Shown in pieces: positions 6,146 through 7,615 of a stretch of 64,000 nt of DNA (the stretch's first letter is position 1; each line of letters starts with the position of its first letter). The notes under the pieces were generated by a model that was not told the DNA's origin, searched no databases, and was given only the letters and a program-made list of their open reading frames with translations. Made by a program: the position numbers and the translations under genes. Location of the stretch: the NCBI GenBank assembly GCA_004298505.1, contig SCRO01000070.1:1-64000 (forward strand), read 5' to 3'. Origin of the DNA: Rhodanobacter sp. (GTDB taxonomy: Bacteria > Pseudomonadota > Gammaproteobacteria > Xanthomonadales > Rhodanobacteraceae).

Positions 6146-7615
6146 TCAGGTGGCACGCAGGCTCTCGACGAAGCGGCGCGGCGCGGCCTCGAAGCCACCG
6201 TTGGACATGAAGATGACCTGGTCGCCAGGCTGCACTTGCGCACGCAGGCTTTCGATCAAGGCAGCCACGGTGGGTACCGTCATACCGTGGCCGGCCAATG
6301 CGTCGGTGACTGCACCAGCATCCCACGGCAGCTCGGCCCGCTGCAGCAACACCACCTCGTCGGCATCGGCCAGCGATGGCGCCAGCGCCGCCGCGTGTGC
6401 ACCCTGGCGCATCGAGTTCGAGCGCGGCTCCAAGGCTACCCAGATCCGTGCACCACCCACCCTCGCACGCAGGCCGGCCAGCGTGGTTGCGATCGCGGTG
6501 GGATGGTGTGCGAAATCGTCGTAGACGCACACGCCGCGGACCTCGCCGACCAGTTCCATCCGGCGCTTGACGCTCTCGAAGGTGGCGAAGGCCGGCAACA
6601 GGGCTTGCGGATCCGCGCCTGCTGCGGCAGCCGCCGCCAGCGCCGCCAGCGCATTCATCACGTTGTGCCGGCCAAGCAGCGACCAGTGGATTTCGCCGAT
6701 CAAGCGACCGGCGTGGTGCAGGGTAAAAGCCGCGCCATCCGCTTCGAGCAAGCGGGCCTGCCAGTCGCCTGCGCCGATGCCGAAGGTCTCCACCGGTGTC
6801 CAGCACCCCATCGCCAGCACTTCGGCAAGCCGTTCATCATGCGCATTGACGATCAGCCGACCGTTGCCCGGCACGGTGCGCACCAAATGGTGGAACTGGC
6901 GCTGGATCGCGGCCACGTCGGGGAAGATATCCGCGTGGTCGTATTCGAGGTTGTTGAGGATGGCGATGCGCGGGTGGTAATGCACGAACTTCGAGCGTTT
7001 GTCGAAGAAGGCGGTGTCGTATTCGTCCGCTTCCATAATGAAAGGCGCCGCCAAAGGCGGCACCAAAGCACCTTCTCCTCCCGGCGACCCTTTGGAACTC
7101 CCCTTGTGGGTGAGAAGGTGGCGCGTAGCGCCGGATGAGGGTTCGCTCTTGCGCGAACCCAACCGCGCCGACACCCCGAAATTCCCCGGCACCCCGCCCA
7201 CCAGAAACCCGGGCGACATCCCTGCGCTCTCCAGCAGATGCGCCAGCAAGCTGGTGGTGGTGGTCTTGCCGTGGGTTCCGGCCACCGCAAGCACGTCGCG
7301 ATCGGCCAGCACCGTCTCGCCCAGCCACTGTGGTCCGGAAACATAGCGCAGGTGCGCGTCCAGCATGTATTCCACCGCCGGATTGCCGCGCGTCATGGCG
7401 TTTCCGACGACGACCAGATCGGGTGGCGGTTTGAGATGGTCGGCCGTGTAGCCGCGCATCATGCCAATGCCCAGTGCCTCCAGTTGCGTACTCATTGGCG
7501 GATAGACGTTGGCGTCGGAGCCCTCGACCGTGTAGCCGAGCTCGCGCGCCAGCGCGGCGACGCCGCCCATGAAGGTGCCGCAAATGCCGAGGATATGCAG
7601 ACGCATCGGAGTCAA
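6146..7615 (-). CDS. mpl: UDP-N-acetylmuramate:L-alanyl-gamma-D-glutamyl-meso-diaminopimelate ligase
   Basis: MRLHILGICGTFMGGVAALARELGYTVEGSDANVYPPMSTQLE; VAGTHGKTTTTSLL; EADEYDTAFFDKRSKFVHY; carries an unusual insertion (see findings). Confidence 0.93.
   Translation of the reverse strand: MTPMRLHILGICGTFMGGVAALARELGYTVEGSDANVYPPMSTQLEALGIGMMRGYTADHLKPPPDLVVVGNAMTRGNPAVEYMLDAHLRYVSGPQWLGETVLADRDVLAVAGTHGKTTTTSLLAHLLESAGMSPGFLVGGVPGNFGVSARLGSRKSEPSSGATRHLLTHKGSSKGSPGGEGALVPPLAAPFIMEADEYDTAFFDKRSKFVHYHPRIAILNNLEYDHADIFPDVAAIQRQFHHLVRTVPGNGRLIVNAHDERLAEVLAMGCWTPVETFGIGAGDWQARLLEADGAAFTLHHAGRLIGEIHWSLLGRHNVMNALAALAAAAAAGADPQALLPAFATFESVKRRMELVGEVRGVCVYDDFAHHPTAIATTLAGLRARVGGARIWVALEPRSNSMRQGAHAAALAPSLADADEVVLLQRAELPWDAGAVTDALAGHGMTVPTVAALIESLRAQVQPGDQVIFMSNGGFEAAPRRFVESLRAT

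Follow-up and report, generated by a model that had tools for sequence, protein, structure and literature searches.

The locus raises the question of how a palindromic DNA repeat can come to lie within the reading frame of a conserved enzyme, and what allows it to stay there. The window, a stretch of 64,000 nucleotides from an assembly of 3.78 Mb in 139 contigs, carries an intact open reading frame of 489 amino acids on its minus strand (6146-7615). This is mpl, encoding the cell-wall-recycling enzyme UDP-N-acetylmuramate:L-alanyl-gamma-D-glutamyl-meso-diaminopimelate ligase: in a family-model search the protein scores 621.9 bits against NCBIfam TIGR01081 (cut-off 388.7), the nearest solved structures by fold matching, 3hn7 and 3eag, are both Mpl, and the sequence is closest to Rhodanobacter records. 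The genome is accordingly assigned to Rhodanobacter or a close neighbour of it, with 35 genomes of the same genus available for comparison. Between FGVSARLG and FIMEADEYD stands an in-frame insert of 38 residues (SRKSEPSSGATRHLLTHKGSSKGSPGGEGALVPPLAAP; residues 154-191, nucleotides 7043-7156, minus strand), delimited by loop extraction and by its repeat copies. Most Mpl relatives, including close Rhodanobacter species, have four residues at this position, typically QGKP. The preliminary description had put the extra segment at about 35-38 residues and had proposed that a repeat was inserted without breaking the frame; the length found and the intact gene next to four-residue loops in close species agree with both statements.

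Folded as single-stranded DNA, the segment reaches -36.3 kcal/mol against -23.8 for shuffled sequences (z -4.2; none of 200 as good). The two inverted repeats noticed earlier are both exact. GGGTTCG (7139-7145) and CGAACCC (7154-7160) form a 5' hairpin (7139-7160), which is also seen in the fold, and CACCTTCTC (7069-7077) and GAGAAGGTG (7112-7120) form core hairpin 2 (7069-7120), which in mpl is the long-loop version of an element here called type A; relatives have short-loop versions. Core hairpin 1 (7120-7132), with GGCGC (7120-7124) and GCGCC (7128-7132) around the loop GTA, is recognised in an alignment of type-A copies (A4) and in the covariance model R2. It is conserved among the copies in A4 and adjoins a conserved CCCTCATCC (7133-7141, minus strand), and the type-A core can be written CCCTCATCCG-GCGCnnnGCGC-CACCTTCTCCC...GGGAGAAGG. 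The label REP-like given to the element is apt in the sense of a dispersed palindromic repeat, but not in the strict sense of a GTAG- or CGTC-tagged REP, since in A4 the stem is adjoined by CCCTCATCC and neither GTAG nor CGTC is conserved.

A third hairpin, GCCGCC (7047-7052) and GGCGGC (7056-7061) around the loop AAA (7047-7061, plus strand), is recognised by compensatory changes in relatives. It lies just 3' of translated type-A copies, and its sequence varies by gene and lineage with near-perfect pairing. Among 18 sequences selected for having the hairpin, 99% of cells are paired, with 12 two-sided and no one-sided changes, and none of 500 shuffles scored as high. The intergenic type-A copies that were inspected mostly continue directly into the next gene without a third hairpin.

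Copies elsewhere in the genome, as predicted for a dispersed repeat, are readily found. The best BLAST copy is 84% identical over 69 bp (E 6.6e-15) and is located between the glutamate-cysteine ligase gene and a rho-like gene, and shorter pieces occur at other places. R2, which represents the short form of type A, is built on A4 and gives rough E-values, has at least 17 matches at E<0.01 among the best 150 candidates scored, the mpl copy included; other type-A copies in this genome number at least 15-17. Four congeners have at least 59, 31, 13 and 6 matches among the best 150 candidates per genome. The segment is thus repeated in the genome and, with a short loop in most relatives, is not a conserved part of distant Mpl proteins.

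Seven conserved genes of this genome carry type A in frame: mpl, ppc, tdk, leuB, ileS, copA and icmF. They were identified by family models, all above the curated cut-off except IcmF, whose open reading frame is truncated in the locus. The end of pdxA holds a further copy, and the remaining copies, where checked, are intergenic, as between ileS and lspA and between glmS and the cystathionine beta-synthase gene. No conserved gene broken by a type-A copy was found among the flanks checked. In plus orientation (mpl, ppc, tdk and leuB) the element is always read as PSSGxAxHLLP..GEG, and in minus orientation (ileS, icmF and copA) as LPPxAGEGxxRxDGG. Under equal use of the three frames, finding one frame per orientation in seven genes would have a probability of about 5e-4.

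Some reading frames have accumulated several repeats. The fused isobutyryl-CoA mutase IcmF (L005/L157/L176; C78:6273-10353 of this genome) contains three different in-frame repeats, namely a type-A long-loop fragment with CCGATTCCCGATTCCCG, a type-B palindrome of the kind described below and a reverse-oriented type-A copy. A DEXH-box helicase frame in congener G033 (L189/L208; C1:209827-212982) has an inverted in-frame pair of type-A copies and, near the C-terminal part, additional segments that look like repeats.

We infer that the mpl insert is translated from its frame and from the intact reading frames. The peptide is predicted to be disordered: in an AlphaFold2 model based on 30 Mpl sequences the mean pLDDT is 81, but residues 156-187 are below 50, and the insert, at about 26-44, is placed between two well-predicted strands, which is in line with the loop that had been suggested. 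Loop length differs in both solved Mpl proteins, 3hn7 and 3eag, in a sequence alignment, which suggests that the loop accepts insertions and deletions in general. All three minus-strand reading frames are open through the segment. Pairwise dN/dS, resting on few changes, is about 0.6-1.6 among the alignable type-A inserts where computable and 0.24-0.73 among inserts of the related type A2, compared with 0.07-0.18 for the 260 codons flanking the insert. The insert evolves much faster than the surrounding enzyme, and its constraint is relaxed.

The same loop has been taken repeatedly, and not by type A alone, a point that goes beyond the preliminary description, as does the presence of the same in-frame element in other enzymes. 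An insert is present in 32 of 111 distinct Mpl sequences, and the loop is short in the other 79. Assigned by sequence pattern, the inserts comprise at least five unrelated repeat classes: class A (16 inserts) with its relative A2 (4), class B (GGGGTCAGAGTC..GACTCTGACCCC; 6), class C (GGGATTCGGGATT..; 2), class D (2) and class E (GGGGACGGAGGCAATTAA..; 1), while one insert is unclassified. All the inserts found by this extraction, which was directed at in-frame loops, are in frame and without a stop codon. On an Mpl tree made by a quick method with the insert left out, and with many weak inner branches, presence and absence of an insert require at least 17 changes, 7 of them forced by well-supported branches; class B by itself requires 6 changes, 4 of them forced in this way, and all insert classes together 26. 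Some of these changes may be due to tree error or to exchange of mpl alleles. However, an empty allele (L042) is 97-99% identical to four filled ones (L024, L027, L032 and L034) immediately after the loop, which indicates that the events are local. Type A is also found at this loop in the relative G047 (locus L039), which belongs to a different family of the same order.

Mpl is not unique in this respect, because the loops of leuB and ppc have also been taken by more than one repeat. The leuB loop has five residues of the GDGKA type in most congeners, a 27-residue type-A insert in four genomes including this one and a different short repeat in three. The ppc loop is short in most genomes and has about 40-77 extra residues made up of more than one repeat module in several. 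In seven ppc loci (L286-L291 and L293) a second module (LPSGERAGVRG, CCCCTCCGGGGAGAGGGCTGGGGTGAGGGG) is found besides type A, and short remnants are seen in four others (L297, L308, L309 and L310).

Type B offers a view of the possible source of such repeats. Its palindromes start with GGGGTCAG, its arms have GGGGTCAG[AG], and they are the same in kind as the terminal inverted repeats of RAYT-like genes in this genome. The genome has six Y1_Tnp genes, five above the family cut-off and one below, and type-B arms flank two of them, L151 and L153 (AAACGGGGTCAGGTTCAC../..GTGAACCTGACCCC and AAAAGGGGTCAGAGACATTAT../..). The best model for both transposases is NF047646, a REP-associated tyrosine transposase, with 65.6 and 70.6 bits against a cut-off of 80. 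At L151 (C78:11303-13455) the arms are doubled, with two copies on each side of the RAYT-like gene. The palindrome in icmF is the only strong type-B palindrome in this genome. Type A could not be linked to any transposase, and the type-A core CCCTCATCCG was not found beside the Y1_Tnp loci L151-L156.

These observations are very probably explained by selfish, non-autonomous palindromes that survive in frame within permissive loops, where they are translated and where one family replaces another. A small palindrome of type A would have entered the short Mur-ligase-fold loop between FGVSARLG and the EADEYD strand and would form a disordered linker at the protein surface once translated. It would owe its survival to the preserved frame, to being open in all three frames itself, to a loop that accepts differences in length and to an enzyme that remains intact. 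Mobility at the DNA level, for type B probably RAYT-like single-strand transposition, would keep supplying repeats, and selection would retain in-frame copies in permissive loops only. A loop that is already decorated might be a still safer target, so that families succeed one another. A further, rather improbable elaboration is that the mpl, leuB and ppc loops are standing landing pads in Rhodanobacteraceae, where unrelated mobile palindromes repeatedly arrive, replace one another and leave cleanly, and that the locus-specific third hairpin is active in insertion and excision or is a selected RNA element that makes insertion harmless.

It is also conceivable, if unlikely, that a single type-A insertion in the ancestor of the family was later eroded, converted by recombination and often lost, without any recurrence. 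Several inserts do share bits of flank, an LG-GK start and an AP-F end, despite different centres, as in the class-B insert of L032, and gene conversion between repeats is plausible. However, classes B, C and E have no sequence in common with A, and D resembles it only loosely. The six separate places of class B on the tree, with the four changes forced by well-supported branches, are hard to reconcile with one event, and empty sites within insert-bearing clades have normal QGKP codons, which would demand many clean excisions. The occupation of the same codons by unrelated families could instead reflect a hot spot in the DNA, with transposition favouring a sequence or structure at the Mpl loop rather than selection sparing the insertions that fall there. 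The same is seen at the leuB loop, where the DNA of the empty site (GGCGAGGGCAAGGCC) is similar to that of mpl (GGCCAGGGCAAGCC). This explanation is nevertheless doubtful, as a target preference common to different families is unlikely and each of the two similar motifs codes for G-x-G-K, a turn that is common. A target motif shared by mpl and leuB was rejected because it is absent from the ppc loop (GTCGAGAACGACAGCGTG), and the three loops have no common DNA motif.

That the insert is instead an adaptation in protein or mRNA, such as a regulatory hairpin, a pausing site or an interaction linker kept by selection, appears quite unlikely: most relatives do without it, amino acid change in type A is near neutral and the peptide is predicted to be disordered. 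The best arguments for adaptation are the single reading frame used per orientation and the two-sided changes in the third hairpin. The sequences compared were selected because they have the hairpin, though, and templated (quasi-palindrome) correction of imperfect palindromes could mimic covariation. The compensatory change is still not predicted by pure neutrality at the nucleic-acid level. Removal of the segment from the RNA by splicing, or its omission by ribosome bypassing, is barely credible. Hairpin-rich inserts in a conserved gene have an outward likeness to bypass elements, but a segment that is removed has no need of an open frame, and all inserts found by a search for in-frame loops are in frame without a stop, and all three frames of the mpl copy are open; splicing and bypassing were rejected on this evidence.

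The proposed survival of selfish palindromes in permissive loops has known counterparts. The Rickettsia palindromic elements (RPE; Ogata et al. 2000) are characterised in PMC2229807 and PMC10969869 as palindromes of about 100-150 bp located both in intergenic regions and, in frame, within conserved genes that are unrelated to one another, and the RPE-bearing enzyme Gmk has been demonstrated to be translated and active (PMC2229807). Type A resembles them as a dispersed palindrome with in-frame copies within unrelated, intact conserved genes. The likeness is one of behaviour. Rickettsia belongs to a different bacterial class, and unlike RPE the Mpl loop has several unrelated families, which have been gained and lost repeatedly among closely related species. 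Di Nocera et al. 2013 (PMC3733652) reported intragenic REPs, located within open reading frames, from numerous species, Xanthomonas and Stenotrophomonas among them. Different REPs at about the same site of recB in X. campestris and X. oryzae (PMC3733652) are a direct precedent for same-site insertion, although in Mpl the recurrence involves at least five classes of repeat within a single gene. Type A further differs from the intragenic REPs in having no GTAG or CGTC tag and in that its hosts (mpl, leuB, ppc, tdk, ileS, copA and icmF) are mostly not DNA-repair genes. The name TIRYT has been given to RAYT-like genes with terminal inverted repeats, and GGGGWSAS is common to some of them (PMC3733652). 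The type-B start GGGGTCAG fits this motif and its arms flank RAYT-like genes in this genome, but in mpl and icmF the palindromes are short and have no transposase between the arms.

In kind, the mpl insert is a presumably translated selfish palindrome as already known from Rickettsia and from intragenic REPs, and the novelty appears to lie in how extensively unrelated families have turned over at the same site. A literature search with limited terms, and therefore weak as evidence of absence, found no paper on translated repeats in Rhodanobacter. The translated selfish repeats usually presented are isolated cases, each frozen within a single lineage. The Mpl loop has many insertions from several unrelated families, with empty, filled and composite sites in close relatives, which lets the rate of repeat entry, the mode of exit and the effect of a first insertion on the next be measured. 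Repeat insertion is one way in which proteins can acquire new segments.

Outside the reading frames, intergenic type-A copies share a spot just upstream of the same gene across congeners. Two of them (L181 and L200) precede a gene that we take, from its N-terminal sequence, to be lipoamide-dehydrogenase-like, and four (L183, L187, L204 and L205) precede a presumably rbfA-like gene, assigned in the same way. These shared positions may stem from ancient insertions or from a function of the copies in the 5' leader. The copy before the rbfA-like start is present in four of four genomes.
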